IMG/VR virus record: IMGVR_UViG_3300047494_000016
Location: 1-34,079 of that record
Strand: one strand, 5' to 3'
Length of the DNA: 34,079 nucleotides
Source of the DNA: a virus
In this document: in pieces, positions 12,209 to 22,596 of the stretch
Position numbering within the stretch: the stretch's first letter is position 1
How the letters are laid out: each line of letters begins with the position of its first letter
Notes under the pieces: model-generated
What the model saw: the letters and a program-made list of their open reading frames with translations, nothing else
Databases searched by the model: none
Told to the model about the DNA's origin: nothing
Program-made: the position numbers and the translations under genes

Positions 12209-12685
12209 TCACGCGCCTCCCTGATACGCGGCCCACTTGCTGGCCACCTGGCTCGCGCCGCCAATCAGCGATGTCCCCACGCCGATCTGCCCGGCCGTGA
12301 TTGCCTGGTCACCCTCCGCCTTGAGCAAGCTGCCTTGCGTCAGGCCGCCCCAGGTCGCCAGGGACGCATTGTAGGTCTGGTCTGCCACGTTGCGCTGCGT
12401 CTTGTTGGCAATGTCCTGCTGCGTCGCCAGTGCAGTGCCGCTGTTCACGTTCACACCGTTCGCGCCCTGCGCCGCCACCGCGCGGCTCCGCAGCTGATCG
12501 CCCTCGAAATAGGTCTGCTGCTCATTCGCGCGCGCGGCCGTGTTTACCGACAGCGCCTGCGTCAGATCGCTTTTGGCTTGATACTGGTCGGCCGCCTGCG
12601 TCGCCTGCCCCGCCTGCATCCCGGCAAACGCCTGAAAACCCGCGCTAAGGCCCGTGAGTGCGGTTGCGGCAATCGGGGTGCACAT
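12209..12685 (-). CDS. Internal virion protein (T7 gp14-like)
   Basis: 158 residues, starting at ATG 12685 in a TGATG junction with the preceding gene. The N-terminus is hydrophobic (PIAATALTGLSAGFQAFAGM). A long polar helix follows (ALSVNTAARANEQQTYFEGDQLRSRA), then a Gly/Asn-containing segment (GANGVNVNSGTALATQQDIA) and another helix. This pattern is typical of the small ejected core protein of T7-like and BPP-1-like phages, which forms a pore in the outer membrane in T7. Its place before the SLT protein in the ejectosome block supports the call. Sequence identity with named members cannot be measured here. Confidence 0.75.
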   Translation of the reverse strand: MCTPIAATALTGLSAGFQAFAGMQAGQATQAADQYQAKSDLTQALSVNTAARANEQQTYFEGDQLRSRAVAAQGANGVNVNSGTALATQQDIANKTQRNVADQTYNASLATWGGLTQGSLLKAEGDQAITAGQIGVGTSLIGGASQVASKWAAYQGGA

Positions 12686-13146
12686 CACACGCGCCTTTCA
12701 AATTGGTGAAACGCCAGACCGGCCACGCCATACGGCTCCGGCGGCAACAGTTTGAACCCCATGCGCCGCAGCCATACTTTTGACCGCACGTTGCGTGCAT
12801 CGACATAATTCCGCAGCAGCGAATACCCGTCCGCCAGCAGCGCAATCCACTGCGGCGCGTCTGTCATCCATTCCCGCGCCAACTTGTCCAGTAGGTCGGT
12901 CCCCAGCAGCCAGGGCGCGCCCACGCCATCAATGGTGTTCACCGGCACCACGCCGAACACCGCTACCGGCACGCCATCCCACAGGGCGGCCACCGGCGCG
13001 CTGGACGCGCGCACGGACACGCGGGTGGAAACGTGCGGCCCGAGCTTGCCGACGGCCCACACCTCGTCCCTGTCCGCCACGCGCATGTGTTCGGCCACGT
13101 GGTCCGCATGCGCCAGGGTGGCGAGTGTGTATGTCACGCGGCCCAT
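12685..13146 (-). CDS. GNAT-like internal virion protein (T7 gp13 / DUF2833 type)
   Basis: 153 residues from ATG at 13146, overlapping the preceding stop as TGATG. The longer reading to 13296 lies wholly in the nozzle gene. The sequence follows the acetyltransferase-like virion family: AEHMRVADRDEVWAVG, then VRASSAPVAALWDGVPVAVFGV, a central SPWLLGTD-like APWLLGTDLL, and a conserved C-terminal block YVDARNVRSKVWLRRMGF with EPYG and FHQFE. In podoviruses this gene lies between the tail nozzle and the core proteins and is needed for virion assembly. Whether the fold keeps enzymatic activity is not established. Confidence 0.8.
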   Translation of the reverse strand: MGRVTYTLATLAHADHVAEHMRVADRDEVWAVGKLGPHVSTRVSVRASSAPVAALWDGVPVAVFGVVPVNTIDGVGAPWLLGTDLLDKLAREWMTDAPQWIALLADGYSLLRNYVDARNVRSKVWLRRMGFKLLPPEPYGVAGLAFHQFERRV

Positions 13147-16010
13147 CACTGCCCCACCGACATCCACGGCTCTATGCCCAGCACGCAGGCCGGCAACGGG
13201 TAATCCTGCTGCACCCACATGCTGCCATACGTGTCCCAATTTCCCGGCGGGTGGATCAGCTGCTGCCCGGTAAACAACGCCGGCGCCGCGCCCCACGCCT
13301 CATTTCCGCGCGCGCGTATCTCCTCCAGCGCCGGGCCGGTGGGTGTGTCAGGTCCCGCCTTCAGCCCTCGGGTGTTGCTGACAAACAGGCGCGCATGCGT
13401 CAGCCGTTTGAATTTACCCTGCACTGTCGGCTCGCCGGCGTCGATCGGCAGCGTCTCCATCTGCGCCTGAATCGGCAGGCCTACGGTGATCACGGACGCC
13501 GCCACGTTGATGGTGACGGTGCCGGTGGCCGAGACCACCTGCTGATCCTTCACCGCGCCATCCGCCAGGATGGCCACCGTCTGGCCCATAAGGTGCGTGA
13601 GGCCGCTGACCGTCTTCGTCGGCGCACCGCTGTACTGTAGGCCGCAATCCACGAACCATGCCGCGGTGATGTCGCTATCCCCAAGCCCAAGGACCCGGCT
13701 CTGCATGCGTTCGATGCAGCGCACCCACGCGCCGTTGAGAAAACGCCGGACGCATACATAGACGACATCCTCGCTGCCCTCGCTGATGCTGCATACGCTC
13801 TGAAAGGTGCTGGGCGCATCGCCATACGTCGCGGCAGTGTCATGGCGGTGCCAGGCATAGACATCCTGCTCTTTGAGATACGTGAGGCCCAGCAGCACGC
13901 CGTCATTCCGGGTGGCCCACACGATCTTCCAAGGCTCGCGGGCAAATGCCCAATCCACGATCTGATACCCGAAGAACAGGTGCGAGGAGAGAACCGCCAG
14001 GTCAGTGCCGGTGTATTGGCTGGTGTACACGTTGTAGGAAAGGTCGCGGACGGACGCGCCCTTTTCCTGCACATATATGATGCTGGGGCTGATCACGATG
14101 GGCGGGACGTTGCTGCACCCGGAATAGGCCTGCGGCACGCAAATGACGTTGCTGGGGGTGATGACATCGCCGGAATTGGACTGGCCAGAGAGCTTCCACG
14201 CGCCGGAATTGGTGAAAACGATCAGATCGTTCACGGCCACCAGATGCCGGATTTCATTCACCTGCCCGGAGGAGATCGTGAGCGTGATGGCATCGCTGTC
14301 CTGCAGCGGCCGGCTGACATTGAAATTGCCGTAGTTTCCGGTGCGGCTGGTGATGATCTGCTGTGGGTTGATCGGCGAGCCGCCAAAAATCGCGCGTTGT
14401 TGGAAAAACCCGCACGCTGCCGGATAGTTCGGATCGCCCACCATGGGTTCGCTGGCCACGGTCTGCGCGTTGTTCACCGTGTATGTGCCCACCGTGCTGG
14501 TGGTGGCCAGGAAATCGATCACCGGGAATTTCGGGCTGGGCATGAACGGCGTCGAAGCCACATTCAGATGATACGTGCCAATCCCGCCCGTGCCGGTGCC
14601 CAGGCTGGTGATGACGGTTCCGGCGGTCACGTTCGGCCCGGTGATTGTCTGGCCAACCGCCAGCGTGCCCGCGCTGGACCCCGTGGCAAAGGCAATCGAC
14701 ATCGGCTCCGTCGCAACCGTCTGCGAATTGCTCACCGAGTAGGCGCCAGGGCCGCCGGAGTCCGGCACCGCGGTGATGGTGGTGTTGGCTGCCACCCCGG
14801 TGCCAAGCACGGTGTTGCCCAGGCCGATGTAGCCCTGCAGCGCGCCCACGGTCAGGGTGGTGCCGGTGATCGATCCGCTGAAGGTGGCATTGGTCAGGTT
14901 GCCGGACGTAATGGCGGTGACATTCAGCAAAGTGCCCGATATTGACCCCTGGAACACCACGCCGGACGGGATGCCGGTGATCTCCGTCCCGGGTGCCACG
15001 CTCACCCCGGAAATAACCTGGCCCAGCGCCATGCTGCCTTCCGCCACCGCCGAAACCGTCAGCAGCGTACCGCTGATCGATCCGGTGAAGCTGGCGGTCG
15101 AGAACGGATTGATCGTCTGCGGCGGCGAGATGTTGGTGTCCGGCGTGATGTCTACGTCGTTCCACTGCTGCACCCCACCATCGCGCGTCACGCCGGAGGT
15201 CGAGGCCACATATGAATATGTCCCGTTGTAGTAACGGTAGACATTCACATGATCCACGCGCGGGTCGTTTGGCTGAAACCAAAAGACGCCATTGTATACG
15301 CCATAATTGTAATAGCTCAGGTCATAGTTGAAGCAGTTCAGCGACGTGCCCAGCGCGCTTTCGTCTGGCGGATCGACTGAAACGGCAGTGAGCGCGTACG
15401 TAAATGGCGCTGCCAAATACTGCACCATGGTGTTGCCGTTTGGGTATCCCTGATTGATGCCCAGCACCTGGTTGATCACCGGCGGCGACAGCTTCGACCC
15501 AACCGTGATCGGCGCATAGGTCCAGGCCGTGGCGGACTGGCGGGTGAGCTGCGCCGGTGGATAGCTCGGGTGGCACAGCGTTAGCACGTCCGCCGACTGG
15601 CAGAAGGTGATGTCGAAAAGATCGGCGCCGTTATAGGGCGTGGCCACGGTCACCGGCGCGCCAGTCACCGTGCCGTCCACGGTCACGAAGCCGCCGTCCG
15701 CCACAAACTGTATGCTGCCCGCGGTGAACACCAGCGCATAGGTCTGCTCGAGGTTGAAACTGAAGGGTATCAGCCGCGTGGGCGTATCGCCGCCGGCCGC
15801 GGCGCCCACGTAGCGCGTGCCGGCCCGGTTCAGAACGCCGCCTTGCGCCTGGACGAAGAAATTGCGCAGCAGCTTGGCGCCGGAGTGGAATTTCGCCAGA
15901 TCCGTGCGGGCATACAGCGCGGGCGCCAGCTCGCCGGACGTGAAGCTGCCTTGCAGCAGCGGCGCGGTGCTGGCGCCGTCCGCGTCGTCCATGCCGCCGG
16001 CCTTCGCCAT
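13146..16010 (-). CDS. Tail nozzle protein (tail tubular protein B type) with repeat insertion
   Basis: 954 residues. The N-terminal block (SFTSGELAPALYARTDLAKFHSG through VQAQGGVLNRAGTRYVG) is the hallmark of podovirus nozzle proteins, which close the tail tube below the adaptor. Later blocks also match: CGFFQQRAIFGGSP, VFTNSGAWKLSG, VQEKGASVRDLSYNVY. Between them, at about 303-520, is a segment with at least three related units (SISGTLLTVSAV...G, SITGTTLTVG..., GTYTVNNAQTVASEPM) that is not part of the usual core. It is probably a surface-exposed beta-rich appendage. ATG at 16010 overlaps the preceding stop (TGATG). Confidence 0.85.
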   Translation of the reverse strand: MAKAGGMDDADGASTAPLLQGSFTSGELAPALYARTDLAKFHSGAKLLRNFFVQAQGGVLNRAGTRYVGAAAGGDTPTRLIPFSFNLEQTYALVFTAGSIQFVADGGFVTVDGTVTGAPVTVATPYNGADLFDITFCQSADVLTLCHPSYPPAQLTRQSATAWTYAPITVGSKLSPPVINQVLGINQGYPNGNTMVQYLAAPFTYALTAVSVDPPDESALGTSLNCFNYDLSYYNYGVYNGVFWFQPNDPRVDHVNVYRYYNGTYSYVASTSGVTRDGGVQQWNDVDITPDTNISPPQTINPFSTASFTGSISGTLLTVSAVAEGSMALGQVISGVSVAPGTEITGIPSGVVFQGSISGTLLNVTAITSGNLTNATFSGSITGTTLTVGALQGYIGLGNTVLGTGVAANTTITAVPDSGGPGAYSVSNSQTVATEPMSIAFATGSSAGTLAVGQTITGPNVTAGTVITSLGTGTGGIGTYHLNVASTPFMPSPKFPVIDFLATTSTVGTYTVNNAQTVASEPMVGDPNYPAACGFFQQRAIFGGSPINPQQIITSRTGNYGNFNVSRPLQDSDAITLTISSGQVNEIRHLVAVNDLIVFTNSGAWKLSGQSNSGDVITPSNVICVPQAYSGCSNVPPIVISPSIIYVQEKGASVRDLSYNVYTSQYTGTDLAVLSSHLFFGYQIVDWAFAREPWKIVWATRNDGVLLGLTYLKEQDVYAWHRHDTAATYGDAPSTFQSVCSISEGSEDVVYVCVRRFLNGAWVRCIERMQSRVLGLGDSDITAAWFVDCGLQYSGAPTKTVSGLTHLMGQTVAILADGAVKDQQVVSATGTVTINVAASVITVGLPIQAQMETLPIDAGEPTVQGKFKRLTHARLFVSNTRGLKAGPDTPTGPALEEIRARGNEAWGAAPALFTGQQLIHPPGNWDTYGSMWVQQDYPLPACVLGIEPWMSVGQ
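14450..15110 (-). repeat. Coding repeats inserted in the nozzle gene
   Basis: The encoded units share the pattern GSI(S/T)GT-L-V, then G--I-G--V--GT-IT, then GTY-V---QTVA-EPM. The phrases SNSQTVATEPM and NNAQTVASEPM occur about 100 residues apart. The units interrupt the nozzle fold between its substrate-like N-terminal part and the FFQQRA block. They resemble repeat modules in other phage tail proteins. Confidence 0.65.
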
Positions 16011-17620
16011 CAGCGGCTACTCCACCCGTCGCCATATCCATAGGCGGACGAGAACCCGTCCCGGCCATCCACCCAATCGGCGTTCCAGCTTGCAATCTGG
16101 GTCTCTTCGTTGCCCTCTGTCATGCTGGCTTTGGCAAGCGCCTCGCGCGCGCCGGCCATCATCGCCTCCTGCACCTGCGCGCTGCCGGTGATGCTGACTG
16201 CCATTTCGGCCGCCAGATACCAGGACAGCGCGTTGACAAACCCAGGCTCCCATGCGTTCGGGTCTTCCACGTCGTACGTGCACCAAGCCGAAGCGCCCTG
16301 CGCATTCGTCCAGATCACCTGCTGCGTCACGTACGAATAGCCGGGGATCGGCGTAGAGGAACTGGCCGCGATGACGTATGTCTGCGTGTTGCTCACCACG
16401 TACGGCTGCCCGGTGTTTCGCACCGTCAGCGTGTGGATGCCTGGACCCTCTGCCGGGCCTGTCCCAAGCCACAGGCCGCCGTTGGTGGTCGCCGGCTGAA
16501 ATCTGCCGACGCCGCCGATGATCCACGGGCCGCCATCGACCTGGTAATCCAGTGCGGACGCGTTCGGCGTTTCGCTATCCGTGCCGCTGATCGGCGGGGC
16601 CACGCCATCGGTGGCAATGACCGGATTGAGGTAGAGCTGCGGCCCGCCGCCGCCGGTGCCGCCGCTGCTCGTCACGTTGAACGTCACCATGTTGGAATAG
16701 ACCCCCCAGTCCGCATCAACGACGCGCAGGGTGTGTGCGCCCAAGCCAAACACGCGAGGCTCGTGGAGATAAGGGTCTCCAGCCCCGATATTGGCGCTCC
16801 AAGAAGAACCGGGCGAGAAGCTGTCTCCGTTGCCGGATAGCGGCAAAATGGCCTGATATGCGCCATTGTGCGTATTGATCTGTTCGTTGGCCTCATCGAC
16901 AACGATCAGCATATTCTGCATCTGCACGGCGCCGCTGTTTGTGCCGGATATGGCAAACAGCACCGCGCCGTCCGTCGCCGCGTCATAGGCAACGTCCGCG
17001 ATCGGATTAAGGGTTATCGTCTCCGAAACGTCCACTTCCGAGATGGACTGCGTGTAGTGCATGATGCCGGCATCAAGCGCGCTCTCTATGCTCGTGATTG
17101 CGACGCTGGCCGAGCTGGACACGGGCACATTGGCTTGCGAAATGACTGTGACGCCGGCTGGCGTGTTCAGCGTCACGTAGGCGCACAAATTCGTTTGCGG
17201 TATTGAAAAAATGTAGCCAGGCCGCACAAGCTGATACAGGCGAATGGTGCCGCTTGCGCTCAGGCAATTTGCAACGGTGTTTCCTGCCACTGGCGCTGTC
17301 GGTACGACAACCGAGAACGTCCTGCTTCCAGATATCAGGTTGCCCGCGCACTGAATGAGGCCGGGCGCCAAACCGGTGCTGCCGGAACTGCTGGTGTCCA
17401 CGCTGATGAGCGCGATAAAATCCGCGTTGCTGTCGGTGTTGATCTGCGCGTCCAGAACCCCGCCCACGGTGTAGACGCCGTTGGTGGTGTACGTGAAATC
17501 CTGGCTGACGCTGAAGGAAACTGCGGCGACCGGGTTGGCGCCTACGCTCAAAGACGCGCTCGGCCGCGGAGGCGGTCCGCCGATGCCAGCGTTAAGCGTG
17601 CCCGATGAAGAGCCGCTCAT
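16010..17620 (-). CDS. Ig-like domain protein ending in the C-terminal half of the head-tail adaptor
   Basis: 536 residues starting ATG at 17620 in an ATGA overlap with the preceding gene. Residues 1-425 are Ser/Thr/Gly-rich beta sequence with at least two Ig-like units (compare LGAHTLRVVDADWGVYSN and GIHTLTVRNTGQPYVVSN). From about 425 to 515 the sequence changes to the C-terminal half of gp4-type head-tail adaptors: V-Q-IWT, then DPNAWEPGFVNALSWYLAAE, ITGS--VQ-AM--GAREAL. The complementary N-terminal half of that adaptor is the preceding gene. The two products may dock to form one ring subunit, with the Ig-like part displayed on the neck. Alternatively a programmed frameshift could fuse them. 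Confidence 0.7.
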   Translation of the reverse strand: MSGSSSGTLNAGIGGPPPRPSASLSVGANPVAAVSFSVSQDFTYTTNGVYTVGGVLDAQINTDSNADFIALISVDTSSSGSTGLAPGLIQCAGNLISGSRTFSVVVPTAPVAGNTVANCLSASGTIRLYQLVRPGYIFSIPQTNLCAYVTLNTPAGVTVISQANVPVSSSASVAITSIESALDAGIMHYTQSISEVDVSETITLNPIADVAYDAATDGAVLFAISGTNSGAVQMQNMLIVVDEANEQINTHNGAYQAILPLSGNGDSFSPGSSWSANIGAGDPYLHEPRVFGLGAHTLRVVDADWGVYSNMVTFNVTSSGGTGGGGPQLYLNPVIATDGVAPPISGTDSETPNASALDYQVDGGPWIIGGVGRFQPATTNGGLWLGTGPAEGPGIHTLTVRNTGQPYVVSNTQTYVIAASSSTPIPGYSYVTQQVIWTNAQGASAWCTYDVEDPNAWEPGFVNALSWYLAAEMAVSITGSAQVQEAMMAGAREALAKASMTEGNEETQIASWNADWVDGRDGFSSAYGYGDGWSSR

Positions 17621-18165
17621 GCCACATATCCCGCACCGAACGAAGACGGGCCACCGCCTGGCGTGGTGGGTGGCGGCGAAGGCGCCGTGGCCCCGGAATT
17701 CATGGAGGAGGTCACCGCGCGCACCAGGATCGCTCCGGTGGTGAATGGAATCACGGTGGGCGACGGATCGCCCGACATGTTCGGCTGCGCGAGCCCCTGA
17801 TATGCTTGGCCGCCCTGCAGGTAAAACGCGCCGCCGAAATCAATGGACGATGCCGAACCGCTCGGGATGTAATTCACGTTGATCGGACCGGACGCCTGCG
17901 GGACGGCCAGCGCCCGTACCTTGACGCATGCGGGCCTGGCATACTCCACGGCCCACGGCGGCGGCGCGGTGTTGCCGGTCTGCTGCAGCGGAATCAGGAC
18001 TTTGGCGAACGGCCAATCGTAATCGGCAAGCAGGGAGCGCCGGGCCTGGTCAAAAAATTGGCGGCAGGTGCCGGCAAGCTGCCCTGGATCGTTCAGGGAC
18101 GATATGCCTTGGTGCGTTCCCAGCCTGCCCAGGGCCATGTTGCACACCTGGACAATGCTGGTCAC
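17617..18165 (-). CDS. Head-tail adaptor, N-terminal part (gp4 / tail tubular protein A type)
   Basis: 182 residues from GTG at 18165. The start VCNMALGRLGTHQGISSLNDPG--A--CRQFFDQAR--LLADYDWPFAK is the classic N-terminus of podovirus head-closure adaptors that bind under the portal. The family's usual C-terminal part (DP-F-P-F--AL---LA-E) is missing. In its place are a glycine-rich stretch and a Ser/Pro tail (SPPPTTPGGGPSSFG) ending where the next gene begins. The missing half appears at the end of that gene (16010-17620). The gene lies between a small head protein and the nozzle, exactly where an adaptor belongs. Confidence 0.8.
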   Translation of the reverse strand: MTSIVQVCNMALGRLGTHQGISSLNDPGQLAGTCRQFFDQARRSLLADYDWPFAKVLIPLQQTGNTAPPPWAVEYARPACVKVRALAVPQASGPINVNYIPSGSASSIDFGGAFYLQGGQAYQGLAQPNMSGDPSPTVIPFTTGAILVRAVTSSMNSGATAPSPPPTTPGGGPSSFGAGYVA

Positions 18166-18885: not shown

Positions 18886-19959
18886 TTAGACGACGCGGGC
18901 TTCTGCGTTCAGCAGCGCATCGGTGTTACGGATCGGCACACCGCGGAAATTGGTCACCGCCATGCCGGAGAACTGATCCTGCTGCAACAGCATGTTCGGC
19001 TTGGACTGCGCCTGCCGATCCACAAAGCTCTTCAGCGTGCGGTTCATGTAGAAAGCGGGCTTCGTCGCCGCGATGGGCGTGCCTGCGCGCGCGTTCACCA
19101 TGGTCTGAATGCTGCTTGCCGGACGCGGCAACGCGGGCACCTTGTAAAGCGCCTGGCTCATCAGGTCGAGCAAGTCAGGACCCGACCCGCCAGCCAGCGG
19201 GTTCTTGGTGAGCTGCGTCACGTCGATGTTGGCGATGCGAACGATCCAGCGCCAGTCACGCACCGTCAGGCCGCAATCCCATTTGTAGTGGGTCTGCAAA
19301 CCCTGATATGGGTTGCCGTTGGCGTCCAGCACGGGCGCCGCCGTGGTCACGTCCTCATACATGAGACCGGCCACGCTGTTCTTCGGATAAATGCCGTGCA
19401 CGCTCTTATAGCCCCAACACACCAGCCACATGCTGGTGTTGGTGCTACCGGTGCCCCCGGCGTCGATGATGTTCGGGCTGTTGCCGGCCGGGCTCGCATT
19501 CGTCGGCGCCACCGAGAAACGCGGGGCCAGCCCGGTGAACTGCGCCGGGTTGCTGGTGGTGTTGCCGTAGAACAGCGTCGAGGCCATCGTCTGAGACATG
19601 CTCTCGATGAAGCCCATGTCCTCGGACGTGCGGAACGCCGCCGCGTTGCCGGACAGCTTCACCAGATCCTTGTCCACCAAGGAGTAGGCTTCCAGCATGC
19701 CGCAGGTATCGGTGATCTGGGCCGTCAGGCTCTTGCTGCGCGGCACGCCATAGTTCAGCAGGCGCCACGCGCTGCTGGGAAGACCGGTGCGAATGGTCGT
19801 CTTGTAGCCGGTCGGAAGGTTACCCTCCACCCACAGCATGTCGTCCAGAACTTCGTTGTCCTGCGCGAGCATTTCGATCACGTCGGCAAGACCGCCGCCA
19901 GGATCCATGCGGCTGTTCAGGTCGGCAAGCGTTGCAACCTGGCTGGTAATGGTGGCCAT
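18886..19959 (-). CDS. Major capsid protein (BPP-1-like, HK97 fold)
   Basis: 357 residues, ATG at 19959 after GGGGA. Characteristic stretches of the BPP-1-type coat protein are visible: TLADLNSRMDPGG, IEMLAQDNEVLDDMLWVEGN, GLPSSAWRLLNYG, ESMSQTMASTLFYGN, and DWRWIVRIANID towards the end, then FYMNRTLKSFVDRQAQ. The protein forms the icosahedral shell. It is preceded by the scaffold and followed by the cement protein. Length and order fit the family well, with no sign of an internal insertion, in contrast to the neck and tail proteins. Confidence 0.9.
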   Translation of the reverse strand: MATITSQVATLADLNSRMDPGGGLADVIEMLAQDNEVLDDMLWVEGNLPTGYKTTIRTGLPSSAWRLLNYGVPRSKSLTAQITDTCGMLEAYSLVDKDLVKLSGNAAAFRTSEDMGFIESMSQTMASTLFYGNTTSNPAQFTGLAPRFSVAPTNASPAGNSPNIIDAGGTGSTNTSMWLVCWGYKSVHGIYPKNSVAGLMYEDVTTAAPVLDANGNPYQGLQTHYKWDCGLTVRDWRWIVRIANIDVTQLTKNPLAGGSGPDLLDLMSQALYKVPALPRPASSIQTMVNARAGTPIAATKPAFYMNRTLKSFVDRQAQSKPNMLLQQDQFSGMAVTNFRGVPIRNTDALLNAEARVV

Positions 19960-20964: not shown

Positions 20965-22596
20965 TTACTCCTCGGTGTACGTGGCGCGGTAGGTCAACAC
21001 CGCTCCGGTTGGCACCGTACCGCCGTTCAGGTTCAGAGCCAGGTTCTGCGCGCCCCCAGCCACCAGCACCAACGACGCGCAGTTATCGGAACCGAATATC
21101 TCATCGTAGATCGGACCCGCAGCATTCACGCCAAAGCTCAGCAGCGCAGTGTCTATGGCGCCCAATGAGGTGCCTAGCGTGGTTGGATTGGCGGAGTAGG
21201 TCACGGGCACCGCCGTCGCCGCAGCCAGCGTCGTGTTGTGCGCCACCACCGTGGCGTTCGCAGAGGTGCCCGCCGTGTTCGCGGTGGAGCGCCGCACCAA
21301 GCTCATCGTCATCTGTCCGGCAGTGGTGGCGGACGCGTAGATGCGCAGGCGCTTGAGCCGAACGATTTTGGTGGCGCTGGCCGGAAGCACGAAAACATCC
21401 GTGGGCGTAGCAGCAAGCGTGATCGTGCCGGAGACCGAGAAGCTGGCCTTCAAGTTTTCGGTGTCCACTTGCACGGCACCGGTGGTGTTCACCGCGATCG
21501 GAACACCCTGACCGGTGGTGGCGGCAAGTGGCGTGGCAAAATATACGCCCGCCAACGCCAAGCTGCGGGTTCCAGTCACGTTGCCAGCCGCGCCGATAGG
21601 CGCTGACGCCAGGGTAGCGCCGGCACCATCCACCAAGGCCGTCTTCAGCCCACCGCTGCCGAACATCTGCAACGGCTGCGTTGTGCCAGCGGTGAAAGCT
21701 GCCGCACCCGCAACAACCGCGGCTTGTCCCAATGGCCCGTTTTGCCCAGTGGTGGTGCTGCCCTGCGCCACAAAGCTGCCATCGGTGAACGTGCCAACAT
21801 TGGATGCGCCGGCCGCCAGGGTGACAGTGGAACTTGCGGCCAGGGCAACGGTGCCAACGGCCGACGCACCAGCCGCCAGCGTAACCGTGTTGCTGCCGCT
21901 CAGGGTGATCGTGGAGCCAGCAGACAGGCCAACGGTGCCGATGGCCGCAGCGCCGGCCGAAAGCGCCACAGTGCCGGAAATCGCGGACGTGCCCGCCAGG
22001 CTGACGGTGCCCGCAATCGGCAAACCGGCGCTGGTCGTAACCGCCGACAACGTGCCGCCCGCGCCGATAAACCCGTTCAACGTGGAAGACGTGGGTGCGG
22101 TGGCGCCATCGGTGCCCACGCTGGGATTGGTGGCCGAAATGCTGCCGGTGATCGGCACGGGAACGCCGCCGGTAATGCCCTGGATGGCCTGCGCCTGCGT
22201 GCCGTTTGTGCCGCCCGCCGTCACAGATCCTGTCGAGCCACCGCCGCCGCTGCCCGCCGGCGTCGCGCTGATGAGGTTGTTCTGGCTGGTGCGCGTCCAG
22301 ACCGTGATGCTGCCCGTGCCCGCCGTGGTGACCTGAAAACCCACCCGACTGATTGTGGACGCTTCGATCCGATAGACGCCATCGGCAGTGATGGTCGATT
22401 GCGCTGTCGTGGATCCGTACGGATACGCGGACACGTTGTGAAAACTCGCCGCCTCCGTCCAACTGCCGATCGGCGTCAGCACCGCGCCAGATGCGGTCAG
22501 GCCGATGAACTCGAAAGCGACGGTGTTATCATCACCGTAAATCTGCGTGTAATACTGCGCGCCAACCGGGCTGACGGTGAAATTGGTCATCGGCAT
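20965..22596 (-). CDS. Repeat-rich structural protein between portal and Bbp19 (head-fibre-like)
   Basis: 543 residues, ATG at 22596 directly after the portal stop. Residues 1-110 look like a small beta domain (FTVSPVGAQYYTQIYGDD...). A glycine-rich hinge lies at about 115-125. The middle is built from hydrophobic Ala/Gly/Thr/Ser repeats (GTVSLAGTSAISGTVALSAG, STITLSGSNTVTLAAGASA). The last 190 residues form a distinct domain (IVRLKRLRIYASATTAGQMTMSLVRRS). The composition resembles beta-roll fibres. An appendage on the head or the portal vertex is the likeliest role; no family was recognised. BPP-1-type clusters have few genes in this slot, so this may be an accessory insertion. Confidence 0.75.
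   Translation of the reverse strand: MPMTNFTVSPVGAQYYTQIYGDDNTVAFEFIGLTASGAVLTPIGSWTEAASFHNVSAYPYGSTTAQSTITADGVYRIEASTISRVGFQVTTAGTGSITVWTRTSQNNLISATPAGSGGGGSTGSVTAGGTNGTQAQAIQGITGGVPVPITGSISATNPSVGTDGATAPTSSTLNGFIGAGGTLSAVTTSAGLPIAGTVSLAGTSAISGTVALSAGAAAIGTVGLSAGSTITLSGSNTVTLAAGASAVGTVALAASSTVTLAAGASNVGTFTDGSFVAQGSTTTGQNGPLGQAAVVAGAAAFTAGTTQPLQMFGSGGLKTALVDGAGATLASAPIGAAGNVTGTRSLALAGVYFATPLAATTGQGVPIAVNTTGAVQVDTENLKASFSVSGTITLAATPTDVFVLPASATKIVRLKRLRIYASATTAGQMTMSLVRRSTANTAGTSANATVVAHNTTLAAATAVPVTYSANPTTLGTSLGAIDTALLSFGVNAAGPIYDEIFGSDNCASLVLVAGGAQNLALNLNGGTVPTGAVLTYRATYTEE

Follow-up and report, generated by a model that had tools for sequence, protein, structure and literature searches.

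In the phages considered here, head and tail are normally joined by one adaptor chain per subunit of the neck ring. The adaptors of T7, P-SCSP1u and SU10 also hold the fibers, with a fiber-dock domain (PMC6702177, PMC10575957, PMC9509320), which in T7 and SU10 is the beta domain of the protein (PMC6702177, PMC9509320). In SU10, the long tail fibers are held by fiber-dock loops that protrude radially (PMC9509320). The P22 gp4 adaptor has no fiber dock (PMC6702177, PMC9509320). In epsilon15, BPP-1, HU1 and others, the gene slot of the adaptor described below is taken by unsplit, one-chain homologues.

The window analysed here is the whole 34,079-nucleotide stretch of IMG/VR record IMGVR_UViG_3300047494_000016, a 34-kb contig of a virus of bacteria. 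Its adaptor is distributed over two overlapping genes (Table 1), and the coordinates, reading frames, four-nucleotide overlap and C-terminal peptide are as described in the initial annotation. In profile searches against PHROG 394, an adaptor profile of 190 residues, residues 1–88 of gene 1 match positions 1–88 (E 4e-19), and residues 431–520 of gene 2 match positions 99–188 (E 5e-13), both far beyond chance. Positions 2–94 of an in-house adaptor profile are likewise matched by the N-terminal half in gene 1. The whole PHROG 394 profile is covered, but by two ORFs, and as sequenced no single polypeptide carries it. These consecutive matches bear out the initial reading as the N- and C-terminal halves of one adaptor with an insertion between them. 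The gene order capsid–cement–adaptor–nozzle is present, with a gene for a Bbp16-type cement protein as a further neighbour of the pair. The matches to both profile halves and the gene slot known from epsilon15 and BPP-1 imply that genes 1 and 2 replace one adaptor gene.

Table 1. Features of the adaptor locus, in positions of the window
Feature	Position	Strand	Description
Gene 1	18165-17617	(-)	GTG start, 182 aa, adaptor N-terminal half
Gene 2	17620-16010	(-)	ATG start, 536 aa, adaptor C-terminal half
ATGA	17617-17620	(-)	gene 2 ATG overlapping gene 1 TGA stop, 4-nt overlap; codon-usage frame switch
Adaptor N-terminal half, gene 1 residues 1-94	17884..18165	(-)	helices 1-2 and first fiber-dock strands
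Beta-strand PTVIPFTTG, gene 1 residues 136-144	17734..17760	(-)	first strand of the hairpin interrupted by the split
Pro/Gly/Ser tail, gene 1 residues 145-182	17620..17733	(-)	upstream part of the expanded hairpin loop
Inserted block, gene 2 residues 1-424	16349..17620	(-)	G/S/A/V/T-rich; no detectable relative
Adaptor C-terminal half, gene 2 residues 431-536	16013..16330	(-)	second hairpin strand, last strand, helices 3-4, C-terminus
Tail nozzle gene	13146..16010	(-)	PHROG 376, E 1e-192; start overlaps gene 2 stop (TGATG)
Major capsid protein, GP7 family	18886..19959	(-)	PF20911, E 3e-128; upstream anchor of the conserved gene order

The adaptor is of the T7/epsilon15 gp11 type, which has a fiber dock. 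The gp4-type label that it had first been given was rejected, as the convincing matches are to T7-type adaptors with the beta dock domain. The two closest relatives, L002 (IMGVR_UViG_3300047325_000054) and L010 (IMGVR_UViG_3300047174_000027), have in the same gene slot an unsplit single-chain adaptor of 288 and 309 residues, respectively. The comparison with unsplit adaptors that had been suggested showed that between the strands PTVIPFTTG and VIWTNA, at the split site, L002 and L010 carry a Pro/Gly-rich loop of about 35 and 65 residues, respectively, while other adaptors have only a few residues there. The first of these strands is identical in L002 and the window. The Pro/Gly/Ser tail of gene 1, which is coding in the gene 1 frame, is the counterpart of these loops.

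An AlphaFold2 model of the L002 adaptor, based on 77 sequences, has a mean pLDDT of 80, with 164 residues at 90 or above. It contains the four-helix bundle and the beta fiber dock, in which strands 141–147 and 182–188 flank a low-confidence loop. The best solved match of the model is Carin 1 (8ck1_E, E 4e-13); further matches are LME-1 (9efk), P-SCSP1u (8i4m) and, more weakly, T7 gp11. The split falls within the loop that connects two beta-strands of the fiber dock. By analogy with SU10, at the level of the loop rather than of single residues, the inserted block probably sits on a radially protruding fiber-dock loop. The fold search also lists further long adaptors in BFVD, of 492–1139 aa.

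Relatives were surveyed in 149 loci collected by their capsid protein, and a search with our own profile covered these and other loci. An adaptor was found in 156 of 170 sequences, among them 132 distinct full-length adaptors. Contig ends and L020 aside, no other genuine split adaptor occurs in the 156 adaptor-bearing loci, and the interrupted two-gene form was not found among the relatives surveyed. An inserted G (at about 4515) distinguishes L020 from L019, of which it is otherwise a copy, and makes the L020 adaptor look split by a break in a conserved helix; this split is a single-base artefact. One-base indels therefore exist in this collection and can mimic a split adaptor. In L048 (11420–12568), the adaptor ORF has about 175 additional residues before the adaptor domain. 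A scan of bacterial genomes with the C-terminal half gave no match.

Both halves in the window are well conserved. Identity to L002 is 60% for gene 1 and 72% for the C-terminal half, and the C-terminal half is 73% identical to that of L010. Against these two relatives, dN/dS is about 0.22–0.27 for the N-terminal and about 0.16–0.22 for the C-terminal half, values that are rough because dS exceeds 1. Mean identity to 75 outgroup adaptors (N/C halves) is 0.319/0.271 for the window, 0.312/0.265 for L002 and 0.324/0.298 for L010. At positions conserved to at least 85% in 77 adaptors, the window shows a single difference, Tyr to Cys, and pairwise alignments reveal the same Cys in L002 and L010. As the halves are as close to the outgroup as those of the relatives, there is no relaxed evolution and the copy is not decaying, although this conservation partly predates the split.

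The junction itself was investigated with a codon-usage scan trained on the other genes of the window. The gene 1 frame is favoured up to block 17670–17626 and the gene 2 frame from 17625 onwards. The encoded protein is linker-like on either side, right up to the ATGA, and the gene 2 frame, which is open over 73 codons, has no start codon before the gene 2 ATG. The junction is present in a single contig, the viral collection containing no second copy. There is a real chance, about one in four, that the split reflects one base gained or lost in sequencing or assembly, or a defective variant, and that the true gene encodes a single fused adaptor about 715 residues long, with the 424-residue module in its fiber-dock loop. 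This reading draws on the single known copy of the locus, on the one chain of every complete relative surveyed, on the artefactual L020 split caused by one base, and on the fact that a single-base change would bring the block in frame. However, the coding frame changes within only a few codons of the ATGA, before which the sequence is linker-like in one frame and after which it is so in the other, no homopolymer longer than three bases occurs in 17600–17670, and about 18 kb of other conserved coding DNA, summed from alignments, aligns to relatives without a frame change. Moreover, the break in L020 disrupts a conserved helix, unlike that in the window. Of the single-base indels simulated in the window, 7.8% yield a four-nucleotide NTGA start/stop overlap within 30 nt, a random rate at which the ATGA is moderate, not strong, evidence. 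Even a one-base error would remove only the split; the large insertion in the fiber-dock loop would be unaffected.

For a genuine split, the question arises whether one or two chains are produced. The initial annotation left this undecided between a ring subunit assembled from two chains and a fused product of a –1 frameshift; the two-chain reading is now the better supported. ATGA overlaps were shown to mediate tightly coupled termination–reinitiation in most tested gene pairs (PMC6728339), and genes encoding subunits of the same complex are enriched in them (PMC10666635). Genes 1 and 2 have the four-nucleotide stop/start overlap of such a pair, and TGATG and GTGA gene overlaps also occur in the same phage, the latter in an internal virion protein gene pair that overlaps by 4 nt at window 12685–12688 (-). 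A programmed –1 frameshift near the end of gene 1, giving one fused chain, whether or not the short product is also made, appears unlikely. Gene 2 does lie in the –1 frame, which is open for 73 codons upstream, and frameshift-added C-terminal Ig-like domains are well known in phages (PMC5009743). However, a scan of gene 1 detected no in-frame X_XXY_YYZ slippery heptamer, and the predicted RNA fold of the 141 nt around the junction is no better than that of shuffled sequences (z 0.22). Since all 12 subunits would need the fused product, frameshifting would have to be very efficient, and gene 2 starts with an ATG of its own that coincides with the stop and is followed by linker-like sequence. 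Given the change of codon-usage frame at the ATGA and the lack of a slippery heptamer, termination–reinitiation giving two chains is favoured over frameshifting.

That the split gene is simply broken, and that a complete second adaptor encoded elsewhere does the work, is very improbable. A 34-kb virus contig may be incomplete, but a profile search found no second adaptor in the record, so that the complete copy considered initially as an argument against the split did not come to light. The adaptor of the nearest relatives, furthermore, occupies the same slot, and the halves show no relaxed evolution. Excision of the block by splicing, either of the RNA (group I/II intron) or of the protein (split intein), brought to mind by an insertion flanked by two conserved halves, can practically be dismissed, with no Rfam match anywhere in the window, no intein family match, and a block whose reading frame is open and whose codon usage resembles that of the phage.

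No relative of the inserted block was detected in viral contigs, phage and plasmid collections, four bacterial/viral records or PDB sequences, and scans of the whole gene and of pieces gave no match of the block to Pfam, NCBIfam or PHROGs. The block has no internal repeats and no relative in the rest of the window. A hint of a match to CdiI_N (E 0.18) was dropped. The Ig-like nature initially ascribed to the block finds no profile support, as no Ig, Big or Hoc profile matches it. The same Pfam scan, as a positive control, finds Ig_3 in the adaptor p14 of Vibrio phage VP2 (E 1e-23), and the block is thus without an ordinary Ig domain, although an Ig-like sandwich that has diverged beyond detection may be present. 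An AlphaFold2 model of gene 2 made without homologues consists mostly of strands, at a very low confidence (pLDDT 34). The VP2 protein (L175:9329–11554) has 741 aa, of which residues 1–188 are the adaptor (E 2e-40). Ig domains on an adaptor therefore have a precedent in this family; the split was seen in no other of about 130 relatives checked.

Further lineage-specific sequence is present in the vicinity. Directly after the portal gene (TAAATG), the window encodes a 543-residue Ala/Gly/Thr/Ser-rich ORF (20965–22596, (-)) without a family match; in L010 and L021, which do not have this ORF, the portal gene is followed straight by the next conserved genes. This second lineage-specific insertion may serve as head or neck decoration. 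The nozzle protein (window 13146–16010 (-)) contains GSISGT.L.V repeats at residues ~308–525 and differs from that of L002 in length and content in this part, so that variable inserts are found in both nozzle and adaptor. L002 has two extra ORFs between adaptor and nozzle (L002:1150–2644), glycosyltransferase-like by eye, and the window has none there.

The proposal that we consider moderately probable is a module insertion followed by re-initiation at the ATGA, which would yield a two-chain adaptor with the module on its fiber-dock loop. A T7/epsilon15 gp11-type adaptor gene would have received a 424-residue module in the hairpin-tip loop of its fiber dock and would thereby have been divided into two reading frames. 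Ribosomes would end gene 1, re-initiate at the overlapping ATG and make gene 2, resulting in near-equal amounts of both chains. Complementation would then occur by packing of helices 1–2 and the first strands of chain 1 with the last strands and helices 3–4 of chain 2. A ring with 12-fold symmetry would then contain 24 chains. The module, carried by chain 2, should project radially from the neck where the tail fibers dock, and its job would probably be fiber attachment, decoration or surface binding. There is about an even chance that the locus encodes a natural split ring subunit, that is, an essential dodecameric adaptor of 24 chains (12 + 12) that complement each other across a beta-hairpin and a helix bundle and display 12 large modules on the fiber-dock loops.

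Should the split prove genuine, every subunit of the ring would consist of two chains, unlike in the approximately 130 related phages checked. A neck ring at a site of high DNA pressure would then tolerate a chain break in every subunit, and the fiber-dock hairpin tip would be a tolerant insertion point for large displayed modules. An out-of-frame module inside an essential gene would have been kept via ATGA re-initiation instead of frameshifting. The frameshift-added Ig-like domains of phages have been explained as mobile modules that landed out of frame and whose expression was rescued afterwards (PMC5009743). By analogy, the adaptor pair would fit such a history, with re-initiation as the rescue.

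In comparison with known systems, the locus shares with the frameshift-added Ig-like domains of T3 and A2 a mobile module joined out of frame to a virion protein (PMC5009743). In those cases, however, the module is terminal and the core complete, whereas in the window the core is divided and no slippery site was found. The SU10 nozzle likewise has extra modules inside a podovirus tail protein, namely Ig-like domains in the propeller, but it is one chain, and the inserts are in the nozzle and not in the adaptor (PMC9509320). With epsilon15 gp11, BPP-1 Bbp14 and T7 gp11 (PHROG 394/tail tubular protein A), the adaptor shares the gene order between the cement/capsid genes and the nozzle and, judging by the L002 model, probably the fold; these proteins are, in contrast, one chain of about 200 residues whose hairpin loop is only a few residues long. 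VP2 p14, from the same adaptor family, likewise carries a large extra part, so a decorated adaptor is already known, but it is an uninterrupted single chain in which genuine Ig domains and a Gly-rich part form a C-terminal extension. The adaptors of L002 and L010 come closest, with halves 60–73% identical, the same slot and an expanded loop at the same hairpin tip. They differ in being one chain with a loop of about 35–65 residues, where the window has 38 residues, a stop/start and a further 424.
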